A stretch of DNA of 64,000 bases from Nostoc sp. FACHB-280 (lineage in GTDB: Bacteria; Cyanobacteriota; Cyanobacteriia; Cyanobacteriales; Nostocaceae): NCBI RefSeq assembly GCF_014697615.1, contig NZ_JACJSD010000002.1, positions 1 through 64,000 of the forward strand, written 5' to 3'. The notes under the pieces were generated by a model, which saw only the letters and a list, made by a program, of their open reading frames with translations, did not search any database and was not told the origin of the DNA. Below, in pieces: positions 5,696 to 63,790 of this stretch. How positions within the stretch are numbered: the stretch's first letter is position 1; every line of letters starts with the position of its first letter. The position numbers and the translations under genes are program-made.

Positions 5696-7684
5696 ATGCG
5701 AAGAAATTTTCGCTTTCGTCTCAATCTCAGCCAGAAAATTATTTTCTCATATCTGGCTGTATTTTTGAGCATATTTATATTATGTTTATTGATTATTGGA
5801 CATTGGTTTACTAATAGTCTAGAACAGAATATCCGTCTAGAAGTTGCGAGTTTTGCAGCTAGAGTTTACACAGATTTTGAGCATGAACAGCAAGATTTAG
5901 AAGTCCAAGGAAATTTAATAGCCGGACGTGAAACAATCCACTTAGCTATTGAACAACAAGATAGGGCAAGGCTACTACAAGAGCTACTACCAATCAGAAC
6001 TTCCTTAGAACTGGCTTGGATAAAAGTAGTTGATACTAATGGTAATACCTTAGTTGAAATAAAACACGCAAATTTGAATAATTTTAAGTTACTGGATAAA
6101 GATATTACTAACCTTGTCAGTAGTGGCTCTATTCTAAATGATTTCGTGGACGTAAAAGGCAATTTACAAGTACTGCAAGTAGCAATCTTACCAATTAAAT
6201 CTGCTGAAAAAATTATTGGCGGAATTATGATTGGTAATTTAGTAGATGAGTCATTTTTAGAACAAGTTGCTATTGGTTCTGCAAAACAAATAGTCAGCAC
6301 AAAAAAAGATACAATTATTGCATCAACTATACCAGAAATTGAACTGATAAAATGGCAACCGCCTTCTCCAGATTCATCGACCATCGAAGTAGTTATTAAT
6401 CAACAAGAATATTTTGCTAAAAGTATCTTATTTAAAGGAGCAAGTCAGTCTTTAATCACCACTATACTTTATCCAACTTTGCAATTAAAAACAACCCAAG
6501 ATGCACTTTGGGTACGCTTAGAAATTTTGTTTTTCTTAGGAGCAACACTTGTTACATTGATAGGCTATTTAATTAGCCAAAAAATTACTCGTCCTTTGCA
6601 AGCTGTGACTAAAATTGCCAAAAAAGTTACAGAAGATGCAGATTTTGACTTACAAGCGCCAGTTATCACTCAAGATGAAGTGGGTGTTCTAGCTATTTCT
6701 TTAAATCAGCTAATTCAACAAGTAAAACAGCTTTTAACAGAACAGTATGCTGCTAAAGAAAAATTAGAAACATACAGTCAAAATTTAGAGCAGAAAATCA
6801 AGGAACGTACACAAGAAATTGAACAAAAAAATCGTGATTTAAAACATACATTAAATGAGTTAAAGCAGACTCAGGCTCAACTAATTCAAACTGAGAAAAT
6901 GTCATCGTTAGGTCAATTAGTTGCTGGTGTTGCCCATGAAATTAACAATCCCGTGACTTTTATTTATGGCAATGTGGGACACGCGGAAAATTATGTTAAC
7001 GATATCTTGCACTTAATTCACCTGTATCAACAATCCTATCCCTATCCAGATGCTCATATTCAACATGTCATCGAAGAAGTTGATATTGAATACATTCTGC
7101 AAGACTTACCCAAAATCTTAACTTCTATGAAGGTAGGTGCAGAACGTATTCATCAAATTGTTCTTTCTTTGCGAATTTTCTCCCGCTTAGATGAAGCTGA
7201 ATTTAAAAGTGCAAATGTGCATGATGGGATAGATAGCACTTTGTTAATTTTGCGCCATCGCCTGAAAGCTCAACCTCATCGCCCTGAAATTCAAGTCATT
7301 AAAGATTATTGTGAAATGCCGGAGATTAAATGTTTTGCTGGGCAATTAAATCAGGTATTTATGAATATTTTGGCCAATGCAGTTGACGCTTTAGAAGAGG
7401 CTTGGGAAAAAAATCTCTGTTCACAGCCGATAATTCGCATTTCTTCTGTATGCGACCAGGAAAATATTAGTATTCATATTGCTGATAATGGGACAGGCAT
7501 TCCCCAGGAAGTACAAAGTCGTTTATTTGATCCATTTTTCACTACTAAACCAATTGGTAAGGGAACTGGTTTAGGATTGTCGATTAGTTACCAGATAGTG
7601 ACTGAAAAGCATCGTGGAGCATTACAATGTATTTCATCACCAGGCACAGGTACAGAATTTGTAATTACAATTCCAATCCGCTAA
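5696..7684 (+). CDS. Membrane sensor histidine kinase
   Basis: A 662-aa two-component sensor. Residues about 14-38 form the first membrane helix, followed by a periplasmic sensor region of about 230 residues. A second helix lies at about 276-296, then a HAMP domain (SQKITRPLQAVTKIAK) and a long coiled coil (KEKLETYSQNLEQKIKER). The HisKA domain carries the phospho-acceptor His414 in GVAHEINNP. The HATPase_c domain shows the N box (NILANAVDALEE), G1 (DNGTGIP) and G2 (GKGTGLGLSI). It is co-transcribed with the upstream binding lipoprotein (17-bp gap). No response regulator is adjacent, so its partner is encoded elsewhere. Confidence 0.93.
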   Translation: MRRNFRFRLNLSQKIIFSYLAVFLSIFILCLLIIGHWFTNSLEQNIRLEVASFAARVYTDFEHEQQDLEVQGNLIAGRETIHLAIEQQDRARLLQELLPIRTSLELAWIKVVDTNGNTLVEIKHANLNNFKLLDKDITNLVSSGSILNDFVDVKGNLQVLQVAILPIKSAEKIIGGIMIGNLVDESFLEQVAIGSAKQIVSTKKDTIIASTIPEIELIKWQPPSPDSSTIEVVINQQEYFAKSILFKGASQSLITTILYPTLQLKTTQDALWVRLEILFFLGATLVTLIGYLISQKITRPLQAVTKIAKKVTEDADFDLQAPVITQDEVGVLAISLNQLIQQVKQLLTEQYAAKEKLETYSQNLEQKIKERTQEIEQKNRDLKHTLNELKQTQAQLIQTEKMSSLGQLVAGVAHEINNPVTFIYGNVGHAENYVNDILHLIHLYQQSYPYPDAHIQHVIEEVDIEYILQDLPKILTSMKVGAERIHQIVLSLRIFSRLDEAEFKSANVHDGIDSTLLILRHRLKAQPHRPEIQVIKDYCEMPEIKCFAGQLNQVFMNILANAVDALEEAWEKNLCSQPIIRISSVCDQENISIHIADNGTGIPQEVQSRLFDPFFTTKPIGKGTGLGLSISYQIVTEKHRGALQCISSPGTGTEFVITIPIR

Positions 7685-51118: not shown

Positions 51119-51814
51119 TTACCTGGCTCTATTGGCAACACCAGAAAACACAAAAAACTGTTGCTCTTTGGGTTCAGTCAGGTTTTCACCAAGGTAGCGA
51201 TGAATGCCTACACCCATATCTCTGGTTGCTGTCAGCTTAAAGTTGACTTCTGCAAACCCAGCTTGTTGCAAAGATGTACGGACTGTTTCAGAGTGGGGAA
51301 TACCATTGGAATGTCCGCGAGTCCAAATGATAAAAGCACCTTGTTTACTTAGGAAACTCAAATTTCCTAATAAGCGATTGAGTTCATTTTCGTCAGCAAG
51401 ATTACCAAAAACGCCACAAACAATCACAATGTCTGCTGGTACTGCGCCTATATAGTTAGAGGCGACAGTTGCATCACCATTAATGAACTCAATTTGTTTT
51501 GTCAAACCCAATGATTCTATAGTTGCTTTGCCACGTTCTACGAGTTGGGAATTTAGCTCTACAAGTCGTGCATGAACATCTTGAGCGCGTGGGTGATTAG
51601 CTAAAGTTCCTAGTAAATCTCGTCCATCTCCAGCACAGACACTGACTACACGAATTACGCCTGATGGAGAGAAATTTAAACTGTGGGCGATAAATTCTCG
51701 CACAATTTCTAAACGCTGCTGCAATCTCGGTTCTGTTTGGTAGAGGTCGTGCCATTCAAACCAGTCTTTTGGCATAAGCTGATATTTCCGTTTCCGCAAA
51801 CTAGAAGGAGGCAC
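51119..51814 (-). CDS. Class I SAM-dependent methyltransferase family protein
   Basis: A 231-aa protein. Motif I is RVVSVCAGDGRDLLGTL (about residues 54-70) with the acidic contact in ARLVELNSQLVERG. The later IVIVCGVFGNLADENEL and GAFIIWTRGHSNG complete the Rossmann-like fold. The start could be the ATG at Met14 (MPKDWFEWHDLYQTEPRL). Substrate not known. It is upstream of the sulfonate-binding gene by 46 bp and divergent from hetC, whose promoter lies about 190 bp away. Confidence 0.85.
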   Translation of the reverse strand: MPPSSLRKRKYQLMPKDWFEWHDLYQTEPRLQQRLEIVREFIAHSLNFSPSGVIRVVSVCAGDGRDLLGTLANHPRAQDVHARLVELNSQLVERGKATIESLGLTKQIEFINGDATVASNYIGAVPADIVIVCGVFGNLADENELNRLLGNLSFLSKQGAFIIWTRGHSNGIPHSETVRTSLQQAGFAEVNFKLTATRDMGVGIHRYLGENLTEPKEQQFFVFSGVANRAR

Positions 51815-51999
51815 AGTGATTCATACACTGTACTAAAATACGGTTCATCGGTAGATTTACCGTATTTATATGTAAAAGCAGGCTATCACAGAAATTACAG
51901 TTAAATCAAGTCCGATCGCCAAGTGTTGAATACGGATATTGAAAGTTACCAATGCTGAATAATTTATGTGGTGAAGCAACCAGCGATCGCCAAAAAACA

Positions 52000-52048
52000 G
52001 TAACTTTAGTTACATTCTAAAAACCGTAGCTGACTTAATATTCCTGTC
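52000..52048 (+). promoter_or_regulatory. NtcA-activated promoter of hetC
   Basis: The site GTAACTTTAGTTAC (52000-52013) fits the NtcA consensus GTAN8TAC exactly. It is separated by 22 bases from a -10 box TAATAT (52036-52041), the canonical NtcA class II spacing. Predicted start is around 52048, giving a leader of about 450 nt to the hetC ATG. hetC of model Anabaena has the same NtcA-dependent, long-leader organisation. Confidence 0.85.
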
Positions 52049-52498
52049 TTGAGCAGCACTGTGTTTCCAGCACAAATCTGAGCTTTCGAGAATGTCATTT
52101 TATTTTCCGGGTGTTGCACAAATGAACAGAAAATGTAAGTAACACTCAGGAAAAATTGAATACTCGCTGACATATTTCGAGAACCAATCACAAGAATGCT
52201 CACTTGTATCTGCTCAATTACTAATAGCAAATAACCTATGTTTAAAATAAAAAGTATTTAAGCACAGATAAATTGGCAAAAACATGACTGACAAGCTGCT
52301 ATATCTCGCCTAAAAATTCTCACTTAATAAGAATTAAGAAGTCAAAAGCAATGATTAGATTGCTCAAAAAACGAGTGATTCATCTGTAAATTTCACAGAA
52401 TTCAATACTAAAGTCTGTCTTCTAAATACTGAATTATATTTTGATAAAATTACGTCAAAAAACATCAAAAAACTTACAAAAAGAACAGCTAATCAATC
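52049..52498 (+). promoter_or_regulatory. Long 5' leader of hetC
   Basis: The stretch from the predicted start to the hetC ATG has no conserved ORF on the plus strand. A minus-strand frame here (52006-52230) is rejected because it overlaps the NtcA promoter. Such a long leader may carry translational or post-transcriptional control. Confidence 0.5.
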
Positions 52499-55400
52499 AT
52501 GAATCCTGCTTCTTCGTTCAGCGTTCAAGGAGAACTAAAATTTAATAAACAAAAGCAGTCTAATACTTTAGAAGCAATCATTATTAAACTTTTGAACTTA
52601 GTTGCAGAGGATACAGATTTAGTAGCAGAATTTATTCCGTTGTGGACAATTCAGGAATTTCAACTAGGTGATAATTTAACTAGATACACTGAGAATAAAG
52701 CTACAGCAGACAACAGCAATTTTTTTTACTTGGTATGTCAAGGTAGAGTGCGTTTATTGAGTTTTGATGCAACTTTGGGTAGGGAAGTTTCTTCACAGTT
52801 GTTATTAGCAGAACAGACATTTGGCGCAGATCATTTGTTTTGCGATCGCCCTTTATCATACCGTGCCATTGGTGCTAGTCCGGGTTTTGTAGCGCAAATT
52901 ACAATTGCCGATTTACAACTGTGGTTGCAACGCTTACCAAATCTCCAAAAGCACTGGCAAAAGTTAGCAGTTGAGCGTCAAGCACTGATTTTTTTTAAAA
53001 GTTATACAGAATTGCGATCGCTCAACAGTGCAAGTTTACGGCAATTCTTACCTAATATAATTACTAGCAAAATTCCCGTTGGCGCATCTTTAAATACAGC
53101 CACACCAGCCAATGCGGGACGTTTTTGGTTAGCTGGGGGAACAACCTCACTCTTAGTTGGTGATAGTTGGGGATATCCTGATGTGACATCTCCCGATGCA
53201 ATTGCGGAGACAGACTTGTTAGTTTACCAGCTACCGATTGAACAGTGGGAATCAGCCCAAGTATTTACTAGTCAAAATCCACAACCAAAAGTCGCCGTTA
53301 TTGATCATTCCGAAATTACCCAAATTCCCCTTCCCAAACCGGAATCTTCCCAAGCAGAAATTCCCCCAGTCGCAGAAATTGATTTTCCCCAACAGCCAAA
53401 AGCTAAACCACGGCGAAAATATCCCTTGATTTTGCAACAAAGTTCATCAGATTGTGGTGCGGCTTGTTTAGCAATGATTAGCCAATATTGGGGTAAACGC
53501 TTCCGCCTCAATAGTTTACGCAACTTAGCAGCCATAGATATTACAGGCGCATCTTTAGCGGGTTTAGCCACAGCCGCCGAAACATTGGGTTACACAACAT
53601 TACAAGTGCGGGCGAGTTTAACTAAGTTAGAGTCGCAAACTAATCCTTGGATTGCTCACTGGCAAAGCAATCATTATATAGTGGTTTGGCAAATTCAAGG
53701 CGATCGCATATTAATTGCTGACCCAGCGAAGGGGAAAAAATGGCTGTCACGCCAAGACTTTGAAGCCAATTGGACAGGATACGCACTTTTATTAGATCCA
53801 ACCGCCAACTTTCACAGCCGCAAAAACGAGAAACTTTCCTTACGTCGTTATTGGCAGACATTACAGCGCGATCGCCAACTTATTCAATACATTATTCTGG
53901 TTTCTCTGGTCATGCAAGTATTTGGGTTGGCGACTCCCTTACTTACCCAAGTTGTTCTCGACCAAATACTATTACTGAAAAACTTTTCCACATTAAATGC
54001 TTTTGTACTCGGCTTTTTATGCTTGGGTGTCTGGGGTATTGTTTTAAATGCACAGCGACAATATCTGCTCGATTATTTTGCCAGTCGCATCGATGTTAAT
54101 TTAATTGGTGGTTTTGTCAAACATACCTTACAGCTACCATTACAGTTTTTTACCACTCGCCAAGTCGAAGACATTCTCAGCCGCATTCCCGAAAATCGCC
54201 AAATTCAACAGTTCTTTACCCGTCGCGCTATTACTAGTCCAATTGATGCGGTGATGATTTTTGTTTATTTTGGGGTGATGGCTAACCTCAATTTGCGACT
54301 AACTTTATTAGTTGTGAGTGGAATTGTCCCCGTTGTGATGTTGACTGTAGGCGCAAGTTCATTCCTCCAGCAGATATCGCGGGAAGTTTTGCAAACATCC
54401 GCCAGCCAAAATTCTGCCACAGGGGAAATCATCACAGGAATTGTCACCGTCAAAGCCGCCGCCGCCGAAGGTTCAGTGCAGACATATTGGCAAAAGCGGT
54501 TGCTGACAATGGTTAAGACGCGGTTACGAGGACAGAAGTTAGCCAATGTCTTACAAATGCTGCGGAATTTAGTTAGTCACATTGCGACAACAGTTGTTTT
54601 ATGGTGTGGGTTGCAACTAGTCATCACTGGGGATATGTCACTAGGTAAATTGGTGGCGTTCAATATGCTGATGAGTAATGTGATTCATCCTGTGTTGGCA
54701 TTGTTAGAGTTATGGGATGAATTACCGGCAGTATTAACAGCCGTAGAGCGAGTTAACGATGTCTTAGATTCTCAGCCAGAAGAAAATCCCCAAAAACCCT
54801 TACAGGTAATGCCGTCGATTCGCGGTGAAGTGCAGTTTGAGAATGTATGTTTCCGCTATCATCCTGATGACCAGCATCATACTTTGCAAAATGTCTCTTT
54901 TCGCGTCAAACCAGGACAAACCATCGGGATAATTGGTCAAAGTGGTTGTGGTAAAAGCACTTTAGTCAATTTGCTGGCTGGTTTATATCGTCCTGAAAGT
55001 GGGCGAATTTTAATTGATGGCATTGATATTAGTACGGTATCGCCGCAATCGTTACGCAGTCAAATAGGTTTTGTCCCACAGGATAACTTTTTGTTTTCCG
55101 GGACGATTTTAGAAAATATTACTCTGTATAATCCAGATTTTAGTCCTGAACAAGCGATCGCCGCCGCCAAATTAGCCGAAGCTCACAGTTTCATCCGCGA
55201 ACTACCTTTAGGCTACAACACCCCAGTCGGGGAAAGAGGTTTGCGGCTTTCTGGTGGACAAAAACAAAAAATTGCGATCGCTCGTGCTTTAATCAGTAAC
55301 CCCAAAATTCTAATTCTAGACGAAGCTAGTAGCAGTCTCGACTCGGAATCTGAGCGTTGTTTGTACCAGAAATTAGCTCGTTTAAATCAGCACCACACTA

Positions 55401-55525
55401 CCTTTATCATCTCCCATCGGCTTTCTAGTCTGCGCCATACCGACAATATCCTAGTTCTCAACCAAGGTATGTTAGTTGAACAAGGCACCCATCACAAGTT
55501 GATGGCAACCAAAGGTATTGATTAA
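52499..55525 (+). CDS. hetC: HetC, peptidase-domain ABC exporter for heterocyst differentiation
   Basis: A 1008-aa inner-membrane exporter. Residues about 1-265 form a cNMP-binding-like regulatory region. Residues about 308-440 are a C39 peptidase with Cys319 in SSSDCGAACLAMISQYWGK and the His/Asp part in NHYIVVWQIQGDRILIADPAKG; such domains cut double-glycine leaders. Residues about 460-740 are the membrane domain and 770-1000 the ATPase (Walker A GQSGCGKST with Lys819, LSGGQKQ, Walker B ILILDEASSSLD). The call rests on architecture, the adjacent hetP and the NtcA promoter. HetC acts early in heterocyst formation downstream of NtcA. The exported cargo is unknown. Confidence 0.9.
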   Translation: MNPASSFSVQGELKFNKQKQSNTLEAIIIKLLNLVAEDTDLVAEFIPLWTIQEFQLGDNLTRYTENKATADNSNFFYLVCQGRVRLLSFDATLGREVSSQLLLAEQTFGADHLFCDRPLSYRAIGASPGFVAQITIADLQLWLQRLPNLQKHWQKLAVERQALIFFKSYTELRSLNSASLRQFLPNIITSKIPVGASLNTATPANAGRFWLAGGTTSLLVGDSWGYPDVTSPDAIAETDLLVYQLPIEQWESAQVFTSQNPQPKVAVIDHSEITQIPLPKPESSQAEIPPVAEIDFPQQPKAKPRRKYPLILQQSSSDCGAACLAMISQYWGKRFRLNSLRNLAAIDITGASLAGLATAAETLGYTTLQVRASLTKLESQTNPWIAHWQSNHYIVVWQIQGDRILIADPAKGKKWLSRQDFEANWTGYALLLDPTANFHSRKNEKLSLRRYWQTLQRDRQLIQYIILVSLVMQVFGLATPLLTQVVLDQILLLKNFSTLNAFVLGFLCLGVWGIVLNAQRQYLLDYFASRIDVNLIGGFVKHTLQLPLQFFTTRQVEDILSRIPENRQIQQFFTRRAITSPIDAVMIFVYFGVMANLNLRLTLLVVSGIVPVVMLTVGASSFLQQISREVLQTSASQNSATGEIITGIVTVKAAAAEGSVQTYWQKRLLTMVKTRLRGQKLANVLQMLRNLVSHIATTVVLWCGLQLVITGDMSLGKLVAFNMLMSNVIHPVLALLELWDELPAVLTAVERVNDVLDSQPEENPQKPLQVMPSIRGEVQFENVCFRYHPDDQHHTLQNVSFRVKPGQTIGIIGQSGCGKSTLVNLLAGLYRPESGRILIDGIDISTVSPQSLRSQIGFVPQDNFLFSGTILENITLYNPDFSPEQAIAAAKLAEAHSFIRELPLGYNTPVGERGLRLSGGQKQKIAIARALISNPKILILDEASSSLDSESERCLYQKLARLNQHHTTFIISHRLSSLRHTDNILVLNQGMLVEQGTHHKLMATKGID

Positions 55526-55615
55526 TTAACACAGTTCAGTTAAGAAAGTGTTTCTACAGAGACAAGGGAACACTTCGACAGCAATCGTATTTGATGTGTG
55601 AAAATCGAGAGGCTC

Positions 55616-55648
55616 AGATCCCCGACTTCTTCAAGAAGTCGGGGATCT
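55616..55648 (+). terminator. Dispersed GATCCCCGACTT hairpin, third copy (hetC terminator)
   Basis: A 16-bp perfect stem with a one-base centre, 90 bp after the hetC stop and followed by TTTTGG. It is the strongest of the three copies and is placed to end hetC transcription before the hetP promoter. Confidence 0.75.
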
Positions 55649-56211
55649 TTTGGTTCACTTTAGTTCTAGCTAAGTCGGTGTGAGAAAACCCAACTATATT
55701 AAGAAAGGTTAATGAAGCTAAAATCTTCTTCCCTCCTGCCTTTACCCAACTACAAATATTTACGTCGCTCTACTTAAGCGGAAATGGCTTGAAGGCGATA
55801 GGCTAGGCAAGCTTTGTTTGTATAGCCCCAGACTAACTGTATTGTCCTTTATACCAATTCACGAAATTACTGATACAAATCACTTTCTCTGCAACTCGTC
55901 TTCCGGTCGCCGAGCGTTCGCGCAGCGTCTCCGTCAGGAGAAGTCGAGGCGATGCTTTCATATCTGTATCATTTTTAAAGTGAAATGGTATTACCCCTAA
56001 ACCCAACCCCCGCAGATAATTGTTGTACATAATTCCCGGATGAAATTTATATTTTGTTAAAAATATTTTTAACAACGCCAAATACATAAAATTACTTTGT
56101 TATTGATAATGCTCTCGGAATTACGATATTTAGTGATTGTTTATTAGACAAGTTAATGGTAAATTTCTATATGAATTTGAACCAAATAAAAGTTTCTAAT
56201 GAACAATAAAT

Positions 56212-56228
56212 GAGGGGTCAAACCCCTC
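56212..56228. promoter_or_regulatory. HetR-binding palindrome upstream of hetP
   Basis: GAGGGGTCAAACCCCTC differs at one central position from the HetR site known upstream of hetP in Anabaena (GAGGGGTCTAACCCCTC). It is 622 bp before the hetP start, a remote location also known for that gene. The dyad arms are perfect. Confidence 0.88.
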
Positions 56229-56850
56229 AGTAAACAGCGAATCCGTGACAATACTAAAACTTGGATAATACAAATGGAGACATCATAAAAATTCAGTATT
56301 TTTCACTGGTAAAGTTTTAATTGAGAAGATGACATTTAGGAAAAAACGTAGTATAAATACTAAAGTAGCTATTAATTTTTTTGCTAAATAACTTTGAAGT
56401 TCTCAGGGAAAACTAGAGCATTTTCACCAAGCTTTGCTAGAAAAACTAAAGCGAAAGATTATACGGTAAAATTATCAGGGCAGTAGATTAAACTAAGTAT
56501 TGAGAACCTAAACAGAGGGTAAAACTGCGTCTACCAAGAGCCAAGCCACACTTTTATAGTCATTAAAATGACATTACCAAAAGTTGAAAAGTAACTAACT
56601 ACTAAATCAAATACAGTTAACTTTCTACTCCAAGGTCAAGCTCATGGACATCATCATCAGAACACATGCAGTTCTAACCTCAGTACAAGGAATGAAACAG
56701 CTTTCACAGCTATATTTAGTCATTCTCCACAGGTTTATAGCTAAAACTAAACATAATTTTAGAGGGTAGTTGTTACAACATATCACTGCAACAACTATTG
56801 ATTAATTATTGACTACCTGTAACACCTAATTCCCCAGTTCAATTAACACT

Positions 56851-57276
56851 ATGAATCACAATCTAACTAGCGTCAGTAACTTTAATAAAGGTATCAATCC
56901 CCAACAATTTGACCAAATAGTAGAAGCAATTCTCGCTGGTAAGTATTCTTGGGCATGTGTGTTAATGCTACGTGTGGCTGGTTACAACCCATTACATTAC
57001 ATTCCTTATCGCACTTATAACAGATTGCTCAAAGAAAATTCGTCCACAAATAGAACGCAACAACAAGAAGTATCATCTGCTGAGAAATCTGTAGCAACTA
57101 ATTGCTTGGGCAAAATTAAAGACTTAACTTATCTTGAGGTAGTAAGTAAACAAAAAACCGAAATTCGTGGGGGTAATATGGAGCAATGGTTAGCCCAAGA
57201 AAATCAAGAAGAACAGCCCCAAACATCCGCATCAAATAGCGATAACCCATGTAGAACTTTAACAAACAGCAGATAA
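56851..57276 (+). CDS. hetP: HetP, heterocyst commitment protein
   Basis: A 141-aa soluble protein. Residues about 15-62 are the HetP core: [40 protein letters not shown] and [10 protein letters not shown] second conserved block is [22 protein letters not shown] and EQWLAQEN (about residues 88-116). HetP acts downstream of HetR and makes the cell's decision to become a heterocyst irreversible. Paralogues of HetP exist in such genomes, but the neighbouring hetC and the HetR palindrome indicate the true hetP. It is slightly shorter than the 159-aa Anabaena protein as I recall it. A good terminator follows. Confidence 0.88.
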
Positions 57277-57343
57277 CCTGATGTTATTAATTATTGAAAT
57301 TTATGTAAAATTATCACGTTAATTATACTGTTTCCAATTAACT

Positions 57344-57382
57344 AACCCATCTTTGAGACAATCTCTCAAGGTGGGTTTTGTT
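57344..57382 (+). terminator. Terminator of hetP
   Basis: A stem AACCCATCTTTGAGA / TCTCAAGGTGGGTT with minor mismatches is followed by TTGTTG. It lies about 70 bp after the hetP stop codon. Confidence 0.65.
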
Positions 57383-57952
57383 GTCATAGATTCAAGCTTC
57401 TAGAGCATGGAAAGTCCAGTTTAACCTTGTTATAAAGATTGCAATTAAGGATAAAAATATCTACCAAAATGTGCCAAAATGGCAAATTTAAACTATCAAT
57501 ATCATTTAAATTATACATAGAGCAGATGAGTTAACAAGCTCATCAACAATGATAAAATCATTGAATATCTGACTATGAAATACATTTAACTGATTGTTTT
57601 TGCTGAAGCAGTCAGTATCCCAGAGAGTACATAACTCTGAAACCAAGACAGACAATCAAACTGTTGCTATTGGTGGTTTTGTTTCTCAGGAAGCCTGAGC
57701 ATCAACAAGTTAAAAAGTTGGATTTCCGCAACTTTTACTTTCAATGCCCTCTAGTCAGTTTCTCTATGGTGGGGGAAACTTAGTAGAGCCTTCCATACTT
57801 TTGTAGTCAGAGAAATAGACAACCTAATAGTTAACAGTTGTTGTGACTGAGAGAGCATATAACTACTACACTTTTGTTTTGATGCTCTAAATCCTAGTTC
57901 TACCAAACAGGATAATCTCTGCTGTAATAACACATAATGGATACAGTATTGG
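57383..57952. other. Region with a presumed untranslated transcript
   Basis: No ORF with coding character. The only frames are a TTG-started run ending QTVAIGGFVSQEA and a minus-strand frame of 60 aa; neither is supported. The following strong terminator suggests a small RNA here. Confidence 0.35.
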
Positions 57953-57988
57953 CTGGAAGCTAAAAGCCCAAATAGCTTCCAGTTTTTT
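57953..57988 (+). terminator. Strong orphan terminator before the isomerase gene
   Basis: A perfect 10-bp stem CTGGAAGCTA / TAGCTTCCAG is followed by TTTTTT. It comes about 600 bp after the hetP terminator with no gene between them, and 38 bp before the next gene. A short transcript must begin in 57383-57940. I found no convincing ORF there. Confidence 0.7.
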
Positions 57989-58025
57989 ATGTAAGTTGGT
58001 ATATTTTTAAGCTGTACTAATATCT

Positions 58026-58760
58026 ATGAGTGATTGGTCAAAAGTTTTGCCTGAATCAGAGGAAGTGATGCAATTCCTCAAAAAAGAAATGAGGTTGAAG
58101 GAAGTATCTCAAAATATTTTATTTCACAAAATTATCCGGCAAGCCGCCGAGGCCAGAGATATTACTATCACTCCGGCAGAAATTGAAGCAGAAGCAGAAA
58201 AGCAGCGCCGGGAAAGACATTTAGAAAGAGCCGCAGATACACTGGAATGGTTAGCTGATCAATTAATTACGCCTGAAGATTGGGAAAGGGGAATCTGCGA
58301 TCGCCTATTATCTCACAAACTCGCACAGGTATTATTTGCTAATGAAGTAGAGCATTTTTTTCAGCGAAATCGCGCCGAATTTGAGCAAGTGATTTTGTAT
58401 CAAATGATCATTGACTCAGAAACATTGGCACAAGAGCTATACTATCAAATTGAAGATGGTGAAATCAGTTTTTATCATGCCGCCAAAATTTATGATATCG
58501 ATATTTATCGTCGGCGTAAATGTGGATATGAAGGTATAGTTTATCGTTCTGCACTTCAACCAGATATAGCCACTGTTGTATTTCGAGCGGCACCACAACA
58601 GGTAACATTACCTTATAAAACCGAGCAAGGTTATCACCTTTTTTTGGTTGAAGAATTTATCCCGGCTGAATTAACCAAAGAAAGATATCAAGAGATTATG
58701 GATAAGATGTTTCAAAATTGGTTGCAGACAGAATTGGCATGTATTCTTAAGACTAAATAA
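58026..58760 (+). CDS. Parvulin-like peptidyl-prolyl isomerase of exporter clusters
   Basis: A 244-aa protein with a SurA/PrsA-like architecture. Residues about 25-115 are a helical chaperone part (LKEVSQNILFHKIIRQAAEA, ITPAEIEAEAEKQRRERHLE). Residues about 120-215 are a parvulin-like domain (EVILYQMIIDSETLAQELYY, FYHAAKIYD, then VVFRAAPQQVTLPYKTEQGYHLFLVEEF). There is no signal peptide, so it works in the cytoplasm. Genes of this kind commonly sit beside C39 ABC exporters and HlyD adaptors in cyanobacteria, where they may keep export substrates unfolded. An exporter lies 1.9 kb downstream. Confidence 0.85.
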   Translation: MSDWSKVLPESEEVMQFLKKEMRLKEVSQNILFHKIIRQAAEARDITITPAEIEAEAEKQRRERHLERAADTLEWLADQLITPEDWERGICDRLLSHKLAQVLFANEVEHFFQRNRAEFEQVILYQMIIDSETLAQELYYQIEDGEISFYHAAKIYDIDIYRRRKCGYEGIVYRSALQPDIATVVFRAAPQQVTLPYKTEQGYHLFLVEEFIPAELTKERYQEIMDKMFQNWLQTELACILKTK

Positions 58761-59704: not shown

Positions 59705-60304
59705 ATGTCAAACTATTCTAGCCAATACCAAGGTTTGGAAAATTATGATCCGCAAGATAGTAAGTTTTTAACACCTTTCCAAAGAAAGGCTTTGTTGAAA
59801 AACTTACAAAGTAATTTACAACCAGAATATCTCCGCAGAATTGAAATTATGTTACTGGCAGATATGGGGAAATCTCAAACTCAAATATGTGAGATTGTAG
59901 GTTGTTCTCAAGAAATGGCACGTTACTGGATTGGCATAGCAGAAGCAGGTTTAGCACATAAATGGAATGAGCGACCAATTGGGAGACCAAAAATTGTCAA
60001 TGCTCAATATATCGACAGATTGAAAGAATTGGTAAGTCATAGTCCGCGTGATTACGGCTACGCATTTACTTATTGGACAGCTCAATGGTTAAGCAAACAT
60101 TTAGCAAATGAATTGGGGATTTCGATTAGCGATCGCCATGTTAACCGCCTACTCAAACAAATGGGACTTTCGACTAAACCTAAAAGTTCCAACCAACAAA
60201 AAACAGAAGAGACAAAAGATAACAATATTACCATTAGTGACTTGCAAACTCACAGTGAACCGACTTTTCCTTGGTCATTTAATTTAATGCAGACAAATCA
60301 ATAA
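59705..60304 (+). CDS. Transposase-type winged HTH protein, stand-alone
   Basis: A 199-aa DNA-binding protein. Residues about 20-75 form a first HTH (LTPFQRKALLKNLQSNLQPE, MGKSQTQICEIVGCSQEMAR). Residues about 90-155 form the winged HTH seen at the N-terminus of IS630/Tc1-type transposases (GRPKIVNAQYIDRLKELVSH, LANELGISISDRHVNRLLKQMG). The DDE catalytic domain is missing, and the C-terminus is a short polar tail. It is probably a domesticated regulator. The exporter gene starts 372 bp downstream on the same strand. Confidence 0.82.
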   Translation: MSNYSSQYQGLENYDPQDSKFLTPFQRKALLKNLQSNLQPEYLRRIEIMLLADMGKSQTQICEIVGCSQEMARYWIGIAEAGLAHKWNERPIGRPKIVNAQYIDRLKELVSHSPRDYGYAFTYWTAQWLSKHLANELGISISDRHVNRLLKQMGLSTKPKSSNQQKTEETKDNNITISDLQTHSEPTFPWSFNLMQTNQ

Positions 60305-60676: not shown

Positions 60677-63600
60677 ATGCCATTAGGATTTTCTCAAGAA
60701 CAGTTAGCGCAGCAAATTACTCATACTTTGGGCGAGACATTATCAAGTCAAGATATGGAAAAATGCTTGACGGAAGTGCAAATTGTCGAACCGCCTGTTG
60801 CTAAACAATTTTGGCAAGCAACAACGGCAAATCCGGGGATTTATATGATTGTTACCGGGAAAGTGAGACTGTTGGACAATGCCAATAACTTAATTACTAC
60901 CCTGACAACTGGGGGTGCATTTGGTGAATCAACGTTGTTTCCTGAAGAAGAGTTTTGTTCTTACGTGGCGAGGGCTTCTGTTAACCTGAAATTGGGCTAT
61001 TTACCGGAAGCACTATTGCAGGTGATGATGCAGCAATATCCTAGTATGAGCGATCGCCTGCAAAAAAGAGCAGAACTTTGGAATTTACTCTTATTATGTT
61101 GCCAAAGTGCGCCCATTACCCTCAATGGCTCTGTGGAAGAGATGCTTCAGGCTTTATCTCTCTTCCGGCGACACAATTTAGATACTGGCGCACCTCCAGC
61201 CAAATTATTTCAAGATACTAGACTTTGGCTGTTGCGGCGCGGCAAATTACTCCACGCTGACGGGCGGATATTAACATCCGGCAATATCTATATATATCCC
61301 CAAGAAGGCAGTTGGCAAGCTATACAACCAACCATTGTCTATAGTCTACACAATGCTGATTGGCAAACTGCTGTGGCGTATTGGCCGCAGTTGGCTGATT
61401 TGGCGGGGGAAGAGGGCAGGAGGCAGGAGGCAGGGGGCAGGGGGAGGGGGGAAGAGGAAGGCAGGGGGCAGTGGTTCGGCTCCTTTCGGCTTCGCTCAAG
61501 GCAAGTCGCTCACCAACCGGGGGCAGGGGGCAGGGGAGAAGGAATTTCTCAGTCCCTATCACCGCCGAAGCCCAAGAAGCTGCGTCAAGCTTATTTTCCT
61601 AACCCGACGGTGAAAGCAACTCATGTGTGGGGAAAATTGACGAAACGGTATCCTTTTTTTGAACAACAAAGTGCCGCAGACTGTGGTGCAGCTTGCTTGG
61701 TGATGGTGAGTCGTTATTGGGGTAAGCGTTTAAGTATTAATCGACTGCGAGAGTTAGCCAATGTGAGCCGTGGTGGTGCTTCTTTGAGAGGTTTGACGGC
61801 TGCGGCTGAGAGTGTGGGCTTTGCGACTCGTCCCGTCAAAGCGAGTTTGGATAAATTAGCACAACAAACCCTACCTGCGATCGCACATTGGGAAGGTAAA
61901 CATTATGTCGTTGTCTATGAGATTACCAAGAAAAGGGTAATTATTGGTGATCCGGCGATCGGACAACGCAATCTGACAGTCAGTGAATTTAAAGCAGGGT
62001 GGACTGGTTACGCCTTATTACTCCAACCCACAACCTTACTCAAAGAAGCTGAGGAAGAAAATCTGCAATTTTGGCAGTTTTTTGATTTAGTTAAACCCCA
62101 TTGGCGAGTGCTGTTAGAAGTGTTCATTGCTTCGGTATTTATTCAAGTATTTGGATTAGTGACACCTTTATTTACGCAACTACTTTTAGATAGAGTCATT
62201 GTTCAAGGAAGCACCCTGACATTAAATGCTGTGGGTTTAGGATTGTTGATTTTTGGATTATTCCGCGTCGTTATTAATGGACTGCGACAATATCTTTTAG
62301 ATCACACAGCAAATCGCATCAGCTTATCTTTATTGGTAGGTTTTATCAAACATACCTTTCGTTTACCTCTGGCATTTTTTGAATCGCGTTACGTTGGTGA
62401 TATTGTGTCTCGCGTCCAGGAAAATCAAAAAATTCAGCGTTTTTTGACTGGGGAAGCTTTATCTATCACCTTAGACTTACTGACAGTATTTATTTATGTC
62501 GGGTTGATGTTTTGGTACAGCCCATCAATGGCTTTACTTAGCTTATGTATTGTTCCACCGTTTATGCTGTTGGCACTGGTGGCTACACCATTTTTAAGAC
62601 GAATTAGCCGTGAAGTATTTACCGCCACTGCTAACGAAAATAGTTATTTAATTCAATCTCTCACGGGGATTCGTTCAATTCGTTCGATGTCCATTGAGCA
62701 AACAGTTCGTTGGCATTGGGAAGAATTGTTGAATAATTTGATTAAAAAGACATTTAGCGGGCAAATTGTCGGCAATCAACTGCAAATTTTCAGTGCCACA
62801 ATTGAAACAGTAGTTAGTACAGGGTTGCTGTGGTTTGGGGCATCTTTGGTAATTCAAAATCAACTGACAATTGGACAATTAGTGGCTTTTAATATGCTTT
62901 TGGGTAATATTATTCGCCCTTTCCAAAGATTGGTGGTGTTGTGGAATCAAGTACAGGAAGTGATGATTGCGACCGAGCGTATTAATGATGTTTTAGAAGC
63001 CGAACCAGAAGAAGATTTACAACATCATCCCCGGCAGACTTTACCCAGATTGCAAGGACATATTAAGTTTGAAAATGTCACCTTTCGCTATCATCCAGAC
63101 AGTGATATTAATGTCTTAGAAAATCTCAGTTTTGAAATTAACCCCCAACAAACCGTAGCTGTAGTAGGGCGGAGTGGTTCGGGCAAAACTACCTTATCTA
63201 AATTGATTTTAGGCTTATATCCGCCGACAGATGGTAAAGTTTTAATTGACGCTCACGATGTGACTAGTATATCTTTGCGATCGCTGCGTTCTCAAATTGG
63301 CGTTGTTGACCAAGACACCTTTTTATTTGGTGGCACAATCCGCGAAAACATCAGCATTGCTCACCCCGAAGCTAACTTAGAAGAAATTATCCAAGCGGCG
63401 CGTTTAGCAGGTGCAGATGACTTTATTAAACAATTACCAATGGGTTACGAAACTCAAATTGGTGAAGGTGGCGGAATGTTATCTGGTGGACAGCGACAAA
63501 GAATTGCGATCGCTCGTGCTTTACTCGGCAATCCGCGTTTATTATTATTAGATGAAGCCACCAGTCACCTCGACGCTGAATCTGAACGCATCATTCAAAA

Positions 63601-63790
63601 TAACCTGACAACCATCCTCAAAGGACGCACAAGTTTAATCATTGCTCATCGCCTTTCCACCGTGCGTCATGCAGACTTAATTCTGGTATTAGATCGTGGC
63701 TTATTAGTTGAAAGTGGCACTCACGACGAATTAATTGCCAGAAAAGGTCATTATTTTTATCTCAACCAGCAACAACTGGCGCAAACATAG
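60677..63790 (+). CDS. Second peptidase-domain ABC exporter (HetC-like) with repeat insertion
   Basis: A 1037-aa exporter with the HetC architecture. Residues about 1-240 are cNMP-binding-like (GIYMIVTGKVRLLDNANNLI). Residues about 325-455 are a C39 peptidase with Cys336 in QQSAADCGAACLVMVSRYWGK and the His/Asp region in KHYVVVYEITKKRVIIGDP. Residues about 475-755 are membrane-spanning and 785-1030 the ATPase (GRSGSGKTT, LSGGQRQ, LLLLDEATSHLD). Between the first two domains, residues about 243-295 (EEGRRQEAGGRGRG and following) are encoded by a short tandem repeat inserted in frame. It should secrete peptides with double-glycine leaders. No HlyD adaptor is in the window; it may follow downstream. 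Confidence 0.9.
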   Translation: MPLGFSQEQLAQQITHTLGETLSSQDMEKCLTEVQIVEPPVAKQFWQATTANPGIYMIVTGKVRLLDNANNLITTLTTGGAFGESTLFPEEEFCSYVARASVNLKLGYLPEALLQVMMQQYPSMSDRLQKRAELWNLLLLCCQSAPITLNGSVEEMLQALSLFRRHNLDTGAPPAKLFQDTRLWLLRRGKLLHADGRILTSGNIYIYPQEGSWQAIQPTIVYSLHNADWQTAVAYWPQLADLAGEEGRRQEAGGRGRGEEEGRGQWFGSFRLRSRQVAHQPGAGGRGEGISQSLSPPKPKKLRQAYFPNPTVKATHVWGKLTKRYPFFEQQSAADCGAACLVMVSRYWGKRLSINRLRELANVSRGGASLRGLTAAAESVGFATRPVKASLDKLAQQTLPAIAHWEGKHYVVVYEITKKRVIIGDPAIGQRNLTVSEFKAGWTGYALLLQPTTLLKEAEEENLQFWQFFDLVKPHWRVLLEVFIASVFIQVFGLVTPLFTQLLLDRVIVQGSTLTLNAVGLGLLIFGLFRVVINGLRQYLLDHTANRISLSLLVGFIKHTFRLPLAFFESRYVGDIVSRVQENQKIQRFLTGEALSITLDLLTVFIYVGLMFWYSPSMALLSLCIVPPFMLLALVATPFLRRISREVFTATANENSYLIQSLTGIRSIRSMSIEQTVRWHWEELLNNLIKKTFSGQIVGNQLQIFSATIETVVSTGLLWFGASLVIQNQLTIGQLVAFNMLLGNIIRPFQRLVVLWNQVQEVMIATERINDVLEAEPEEDLQHHPRQTLPRLQGHIKFENVTFRYHPDSDINVLENLSFEINPQQTVAVVGRSGSGKTTLSKLILGLYPPTDGKVLIDAHDVTSISLRSLRSQIGVVDQDTFLFGGTIRENISIAHPEANLEEIIQAARLAGADDFIKQLPMGYETQIGEGGGMLSGGQRQRIAIARALLGNPRLLLLDEATSHLDAESERIIQNNLTTILKGRTSLIIAHRLSTVRHADLILVLDRGLLVESGTHDELIARKGHYFYLNQQQLAQT
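61404..61550. repeat. In-frame short tandem repeat insertion in the exporter gene
   Basis: About 145 bp built from GGCAGGAG and GGCAGGGG words around a nested GGTTCGGCTCCTTTCGGCTT segment. The same GGCAGGAG word (complemented, CTCCTGCC) occurs in the intergenic tract near 26455-26482. The open frame is kept throughout. Confidence 0.8.

Follow-up and report, generated by a model that had tools for sequence, protein, structure and literature searches.

The hetC–hetP locus of Nostoc sp. FACHB-280: an internal double-glycine leader marks HetP as a probable substrate of the HetC exporter

Heterocysts have long been known to require HetC. Here we describe the hetC–hetP locus in a 64,000-nucleotide stretch of DNA from Nostoc sp. 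FACHB-280 (contig NZ_JACJSD010000002.1, positions 1 to 64,000; "the window"), where HetP carries an internal double-glycine (GG) leader that would make it a substrate of HetC. An earlier note, made from the letters alone, had named both genes, and the identifications stand: the Peptidase_C39, ABC membrane and ABC ATPase domains of HetC all score above their Pfam cut-offs, and the hetP product reaches 119.1 bits against the NCBIfam model HetP_family (cut-off 45). The N-terminal cyclic-nucleotide-binding (cNMP) domain of HetC is a sub-threshold Pfam match (20.7 bits; cut-off 27.5). The catalytic residues Cys319, His392, Asp408 and oxyanion Gln313 are present, as are the Walker A Lys and Walker B Glu of the ATPase; among the HetC-type proteins compared, Gln, His and Asp occur in 81 of 81 and the catalytic Cys in 80 of 81. 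The earlier note had raised the possibility that a paralogue resembles hetP more closely; the source genome has three HetP-family genes, and the hetP gene of the window gives the top score against the family model (120.4 bits, compared with 111.9 and 109.8). HetC is 94% identical to that of Nostoc spongiaeforme FACHB-130, so the window comes from a near relative. The pair is the known hetC–hetP locus, which in PCC 7120 we take to be alr2817–alr2818. Gene order, domain make-up, the HetR palindrome before hetP and NtcA control of hetC agree with published descriptions of Anabaena/Nostoc PCC 7120 (PMC4133259, PMC10986499, PMC4192349), from which the window differs in that the interval from hetP to the rotamase gene contains no patC-sized open reading frame (ORF; at least 60 residues, plus strand). 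Rfam gave no match over 51500–58100, and the HetP profile gave a single match among PDB sequences, with an E value of 0.84. A perfect 16-nt inverted repeat (AGATCCCCGACTTCTT, 1 nt, complement) at 55616–55648, right after hetC, is followed by a T-rich stretch and resembles a terminator.

Table 1. Features of the hetC–hetP locus, in window coordinates.
Feature	Position	Strand	Basis or remark
NtcA class II promoter, GTAACTTTAGTTAC + 22 nt + TAATAT	52000–52041	+	consensus match
Best-conserved block in the hetC leader, TTTATTTTCCGGGTGTTGCA...AACAGAAAATGTAAGTAACA	52099–52144	+	alignment of 6 loci; no Rfam match
hetC, cNMP–C39 peptidase–ABC exporter, 1008 amino acids	52499–55525	+	ORF and Pfam domains
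C39 peptidase domain of HetC, residues 307–436	53417–53806	+	Pfam
HetR palindrome TGAGGGGTCAAACCCCTCA, 640 bp upstream of hetP	56211–56229	.	
hetP, 141 amino acids	56851–57276	+	ORF and NCBIfam
Conserved HetP family domain, residues 4–63	56860–57039	+	family profile
Internal double-glycine leader of HetP, residues 88–108; predicted HetC cut after Gly108	57112–57174	+	
33-residue C-terminal tail of HetP; predicted released or exported piece	57175–57273	+	
PpiC-type rotamase (SurA-like)	58026–58760	+	also adjoins hetP in many ancestral-type operons

The leader of HetP fits the pattern KIxDLxYLEx10GG exactly, with the core KIKDLTYLE. Wang et al. published this pattern in 2011, having found it in HetP-like proteins encoded next to bacteriocin clusters (PMC3140520). 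The earlier note, right about the genes, had overlooked both the leader and the bacteriocin-exporter ancestry of the locus. At the positions that we assume to be expected of C39 substrates, I-4, V-12 and Y-15 are hydrophobic and the GG is present. The tail beyond the leader is mostly 36 residues long in relatives. Its last dozen residues in the window (57245–57276) are wholly unlike those of the sister locus L001 (SDNTQEFSLKL...), a difference suggestive of a frameshift.

For comparison, contigs were scanned for similar loci, and the best 80 of 128 relatives were kept. The 25 loci without a full-length HlyD gene after hetC were labelled heterocyst-type and the remaining 55 ancestral-type. These labels were fixed before the HetC tree was made (81 rows; a quick tree with support from the Shimodaira–Hasegawa-like approximate likelihood ratio test, SH-aLRT, and no bootstrap), in which the window HetC lies in the heterocyst-type clade and the 26 heterocyst-type rows, window included, are separated from the other 55 by one branch with an SH-aLRT of 100. 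Ancestral-type loci, found in Planktothrix, Moorena, Oscillatoria and Pleurocapsales among others, run in the order hetC, HlyD, hetP, small GG precursors and often PpiC; an HlyD-like ORF of more than 400 residues lies within 3.5 kb after hetC in 39 of the 55, the rest being contig-cut, rearranged or without it. Planktothrix, Moorena and Pleurocapsales we take to be non-heterocystous. Full-length HlyD is absent after hetC from the heterocyst-type loci, one of which (L078) has a 412-residue form and several of which retain hlyD-like sequence; between hetC and hetP of the window no HlyD-like sequence was found.

The leader motif, ending in GG, GA or GS, is present in 24 of 25 heterocyst-type HetPs and, among linked ancestral-type HetPs whose end is complete, in 37 of 44 (a tighter rule gave 24/25 and 23/44; the looser rule is used here). 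Applied to all ORF starts of the 80 loci, the leader rule selects 80 ORFs, compared with none in reversed sequence; ten of these are HetP's own motif and 70 are standalone small proteins, spread over 32 loci and mostly downstream of hetP. Where ancestral-type loci extend at least 4 kb past hetP, 28 of 35 have standalone precursors. Among 22 heterocyst-type loci none does; there HetP is the sole leader carrier found at the locus, whole heterocystous genomes not having been searched. Five of the seven ancestral-type HetPs without the motif (L023, L026, L033, L035 and L065) have standalone precursors adjoining, and none of 38 HetP paralogues carries it (31 HetP-bearing genomes in a phylum sample of 146). 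In L038, a Xenococcaceae metagenome-assembled genome, the GG precursors after hetP are replaced by an RTX-like glycine-rich repeat protein (6835–7029 and the next ORF).

Both control sites named in the earlier note are borne out. The NtcA promoter has the full class II arrangement, with GTAACTTTAGTTAC at 52000–52013 and TAATAT at 52036–52041, and starts 499 nt before hetC. When the 684-nt region was shuffled 2000 times, the full consensus arose on the same strand in 1.15% of the shuffles. Across the whole window, however, it is not enriched (3 matches; shuffles 2.07 ± 1.41). Judged by frequency the support is modest, so the case for the site lies in its position and in its conservation among near relatives. 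The box recurs in L001, L002 and L059 and is altered in the middle in L009; its −10 partner is absent from L059, and the L003 region is incomplete in the extracted slice. Upstream of 50 family hetC genes, some with incomplete regions, 11 have the full consensus, 10 the core alone and 29 neither. The leader block at 52099–52144, which contains TTTTCCGGGTGTTGCA, outranks the NtcA box in conservation over the six aligned loci.

The HetR palindrome before hetP is the sole match without mismatch in the 7.64 Mb genome; the next best has one mismatch and six further places have three. It fits GAGGGGTCTAACCCCTC, the 17-bp HetR site described for hetP of PCC 7120 (PMC4192349), with one central difference. 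Genome-wide, the pattern at three or fewer mismatches is not enriched (8 places, against 26 for a backwards control pattern), whereas the local tests are clear: none of 98 shuffled upstream regions contains it at that limit, and between hetC and hetP it is found in 24 of 25 heterocyst-type loci compared with 0 of 38 ancestral-type loci tested. The HetR site is the heterocyst-specific part of the locus. Since ancestral-type loci have the pair and lack the palindrome, hetC–hetP is probably older than heterocysts, with the HetR site added later, and the heterocyst locus probably derives from a peptide-secretion operon comprising a C39-peptidase exporter, HlyD, HetP, small GG precursors and PpiC. 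We also considered that the HetR site might lie in the scar of a lost hlyD and rejected this, as Fischerella-type loci keep a short hlyD-like gene with the site upstream of it and the window bears no remnant of hlyD. The second-best palindrome of the genome (one mismatch; L085 1701–1719, equal to G000:C19:51700–51718) precedes a DUF218-domain gene, a candidate further HetR target.

We surveyed 99 genomes of the family, many of them drafts, chosen for at least 95% completeness. HetC was counted as present when matched at E ≤ 1e-240, which held for 54 genomes; the other 45 are called HetC-less in the sense of that cut-off. An assembly gap can make HetC seem absent, but with 45 misses among 99 genomes of this completeness, such gaps explain the overall pattern poorly. 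All genomes but one (98) yielded a hetP orthologue; the exception is G214, which has HetC, and 15 weaker HetP matches were left out. One genome, G179, was moved to the HetC-bearing group on account of a hetC beside hetP (839 bits by tblastn), its site being already known to be intact when this was done. With a site called intact when it has G[GA] and a tail of at least four residues, 48 of 54 HetC-bearing genomes are intact compared with 7 of 44 HetC-less ones (Fisher 8.4e-14, uncorrected for kinship); before G179 was moved, and with a tail of at least five, the counts were 46/53 and 8/45. Counted by genus, the site is intact in 25, not intact in 3 and mixed in 1 of those with HetC, the corresponding figures without HetC being 3, 21 and 1; two genera are mixed for HetC itself. 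Loss of the site takes the form of substitutions or of a premature stop before or just after it, with the old tail still readable beyond (G119, G159, G194, G213). In a clade of 18 HetC-less genomes (e.g. L097, L098, L217), HetP stops about eight residues past the site, in most cases with REKxxA, as though evolution had settled on a new C-terminus. All seven HetC-less genomes with an intact site have hetC-like sequence, 90–302 residues long, 6–7 kb or less upstream of hetP. Such remnants occur in 17 of the 44 HetC-less genomes, and none of the 27 without remnants has the site.

Kinship was taken into account with a HetR tree of 90 of the 99 genomes, in all 90 of which HetR was found. Left out were G214, for which no hetP was found, and G191, G198, G201, G207, G218, G220, G225 and G226, for each of which a congener was kept; G225 is one of the six HetC-bearing genomes that fail the site rule. 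With linkage of hetC to hetP as the trait, the tree gave 13 independent pairs on supported branches, in which, as means over 200 pairings, the site changed the same way in 8.8, the opposite way in 0.0 and not at all in 4.2 (median p 0.0039, range 0.00195–0.0312). A looser site rule gave 8.3, 0.0 and 4.7 for linked hetC and 6.2, 0.0 and 4.8 for HetC anywhere in the genome; tail length alone gave 7.0, 0.0 and 6.0 for linked hetC.

The HetC-less genomes keep other heterocyst features. The HetP frame is open over at least 91 residues in 44 of 44, HetR is present in all 44, HepA scores above its cut-off in all 44, and the HetR palindrome (three or fewer mismatches) lies upstream of hetP in 37 of 44, G179 being excluded. 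With these retained, decay affects mainly the GG and the tail, and hetP apparently keeps its place among the heterocyst genes. Cylindrospermopsis raciborskii CS-505 is reported to make functional heterocysts without hetC (2010 genome paper, PMC2821919). The earlier note had taken the locus to mark its bearer as able to form heterocysts. The organism, with one HetR and a HepA above cut-off in the source genome, does look heterocystous; as a diagnostic, the hetC–hetP pair is rejected, because relatives of both genes also adjoin each other in non-heterocystous lineages and HetC is missing from 44 of 98 sampled family members, all 44 of which have HetR and HepA. HepA, sought in the source genome, the 44 HetC-less genomes and five genomes outside the family, is itself an imperfect marker, scoring above cut-off in one of those five.

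A further line of evidence comes from the peptidase. The one HetC-type protein of 81 that lacks the catalytic Cys, that of L010, has Ser in its place; in the family sample, the HetC of G210 has the same change and that of G177 has both Cys to Ser and His to Asp. The hetC frames of all three are open over 1017–1059 codons, one TAG being counted within the G177 match in the family search. The associated HetPs end in KSGSLDN (L010), RGSGLDN (G177) and RGGGLDN (G210), with tails of only 3–4 residues, and in two related genera, g107 and g88, HetC is gone. Probably a single event, this lineage nevertheless suggests that the peptidase matters and not just docking. An apparent loss of the catalytic His in G160 and G198 was rejected as an alignment gap.

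Based on these observations, we think it fairly probable that HetP is a HetC substrate and that HetC cleaves it after Gly108. Nitrogen stress, acting via NtcA, would turn on hetC, and HetR would turn on hetP. HetP is a two-part protein, in which a conserved domain of about 60 residues, which would stay in the cell, is joined to an internal copy of the exporter's own leader and a short tail. HetC would dock the leader and its C39 peptidase would cut after Gly108, a step we infer from the comparisons above; the N-terminal product of about 108 residues would be the active form that commits the cell, and the 33-residue tail may be exported or discarded. HetC is reported to have cysteine-protease activity, with Cys, His and the ATPase Glu needed for heterocysts (PMC10986499), and HetP–sfGFP (superfolder green fluorescent protein) at 3–4 fold transcript is described as restoring heterocysts and diazotrophic growth in a hetC strain deleted for the peptidase (PMC4133259), which places HetP downstream of HetC. 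A bolder version, which we offer tentatively and think somewhat doubtful, is that HetC splits HetP into two messages, a cell-autonomous N-terminal commitment factor and a tail exported towards neighbouring cells; HetC-less lineages would then have hard-wired the first message by letting HetP end near the old cut site, and a bacteriocin exporter would have turned into a developmental switch.

Several observations weigh against cleavage of HetP by HetC. The same rescue shows that a C-terminal HetP–GFP fusion works without the peptidase at 3–4 fold transcript; at high dose, then, cutting is no absolute requirement. Position −7 of double-glycine leaders is often hydrophobic; in the window HetP it is Lys, and the hydrophobic fraction at −7 is 0.00 in heterocyst-type HetPs, 0.05 in other HetPs and 0.20 in standalone leaders. 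In two ancestral-type loci, L038 and L047, neither a motif in HetP nor a standalone precursor was found. Six of 54 HetC-bearing genomes fail the strict rule, including three of one genus that have GRG with a normal catalytic Cys, G177 with GSG, and G171 and G180, where HetP is truncated and HetC is not next to that hetP. The kinship-corrected association is weaker for HetC anywhere in the genome (11 pairs; 6.7 same, 0.0 opposite, 4.3 unchanged; median p 0.0156), and weaker still for tail length alone under that trait (5.0, 0.1 and 6.0; median p 0.0625). The hetC-like remnants in G062, G186 and G215 have only 33–34% identity and may belong to other exporters. The Cys-to-Ser case probably amounts to one event, and G210, with GG and a tail of four, passes the strict rule by one residue. 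Finally, the leader core K[ILMV]K[DE] is kept in 40 of 44 HetC-less genomes, so the leader has another role too.

This persistence of the core without HetC also bears on a reading in which HetC binds HetP through the leader without cutting it, and the GG and tail are a docking or localization signal that holds HetP at the polar exporter. Both HetP–GFP and HetC–GFP are reported to be polar (PMC4133259), and a functional C-terminal HetP fusion sits well with such docking. We nevertheless regard it as unlikely: it is the GG and tail that are lost rather than the core, the tail has gone also where the hetC frame is open but the catalytic Cys is Ser, and HetP–GFP localization is described as similar in a hetC-p background (PMC4133259).

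Still less probable, in our judgement, is that HetC in truth acts on a different peptide (PatS, HetN, PatC or an unlinked GG precursor) and that the HetP leader is an operon relic. Substrates of peptidase-containing ATP-binding cassette transporters can be encoded elsewhere in the genome, the 12.9 kb downstream of the window has, close to a second exporter, other small ORFs whose leaders look GG-like, and deletion of patS is said to relieve hetC mutants in part (PMC4133259). A relic, however, would not be kept in 48 of 54 HetC-bearing genomes yet lost in repeated HetC-less lineages; PatS is described as having no GG motif (PMC4997328), PatS-8 reportedly did not replace the HetC peptidase (PMC4133259), and the 22 heterocyst-type loci, which are not whole genomes, yielded no standalone leader ORF. 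We hold it very improbable that hetC and the HetP tail were lost without any direct connection, each simply as a side effect of a general relaxation of heterocyst development. Several HetC-less genomes are indeed small (about 3.8–5 Mb), but others reach about 10 Mb, the retention of HetR, HepA, the open HetP domain and mostly the HetR site argues against general decay, and so do the functional heterocysts of CS-505. Cleavage of HetP by HetC, for its part, would give a testable answer to what HetC cuts and would trace a route by which peptide secretion led to cell differentiation in bacteria; it may also account for the many lineages that have heterocyst genes but dispense with an "essential" hetC.

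Among the closest published systems are the Group II cyanobacterial bacteriocin clusters (PMC3140520), described as sharing a C39 exporter with a long N-terminus, a SurA-like rotamase and HetP with KIxDLxYLEx10GG. Unlike these, the window has no HlyD between hetC and hetP; an HlyD gene lies just past the window (64189–65739), with the second exporter. Wang et al. treated HetP as a bacteriocin precursor and suggested an M16 peptidase, and the main text of that paper does not contain the word HetC (PMC3140520); a follow-up appeared in 2015 (PMC4558948). In the PteB–EbfG system of Synechococcus elongatus (PMC4997328), a C39 exporter is described as necessary for GG-leader proteins to be secreted efficiently, and these proteins act in biofilm rather than as toxins; the EbfG secretion motif is N-terminal, whereas the HetP leader is internal, behind a conserved domain. 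The 2024 HetC paper (PMC10986499) reports that no gene for a GG-leader protein was found in the vicinity of hetC. Its authors describe the substrate as unknown and briefly raise the question of whether PatS/HetN or HetP peptides could be exported. The HetP motif has therefore been in print since 2011, as a bacteriocin idea; we found no paper that joins it to HetC or reports their co-loss, in a search that mostly did not reach subscription papers and so is not proof.

A second C39 exporter lies at 60677–63790, 3.4 kb after hetP. Beyond the window (L084, to 72798), the HlyD gene just mentioned is followed by another PpiC gene (66163–66954) and by small minus-strand ORFs at 70252–70578 and 72514–72798, which have GG-like leaders by eye and no Pfam match. 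The second exporter, HlyD, PpiC and the small ORFs look like a complete peptide-secretion cluster. The ORF at 59705–60304, between ppiC and the second exporter, is matched by IS630-type models. It is conserved in place, with 95–98% identity in L001, L002 and L059 and 76–79% in L004–L006, and looks like a conserved helix-turn-helix regulator, not transposon scrap.

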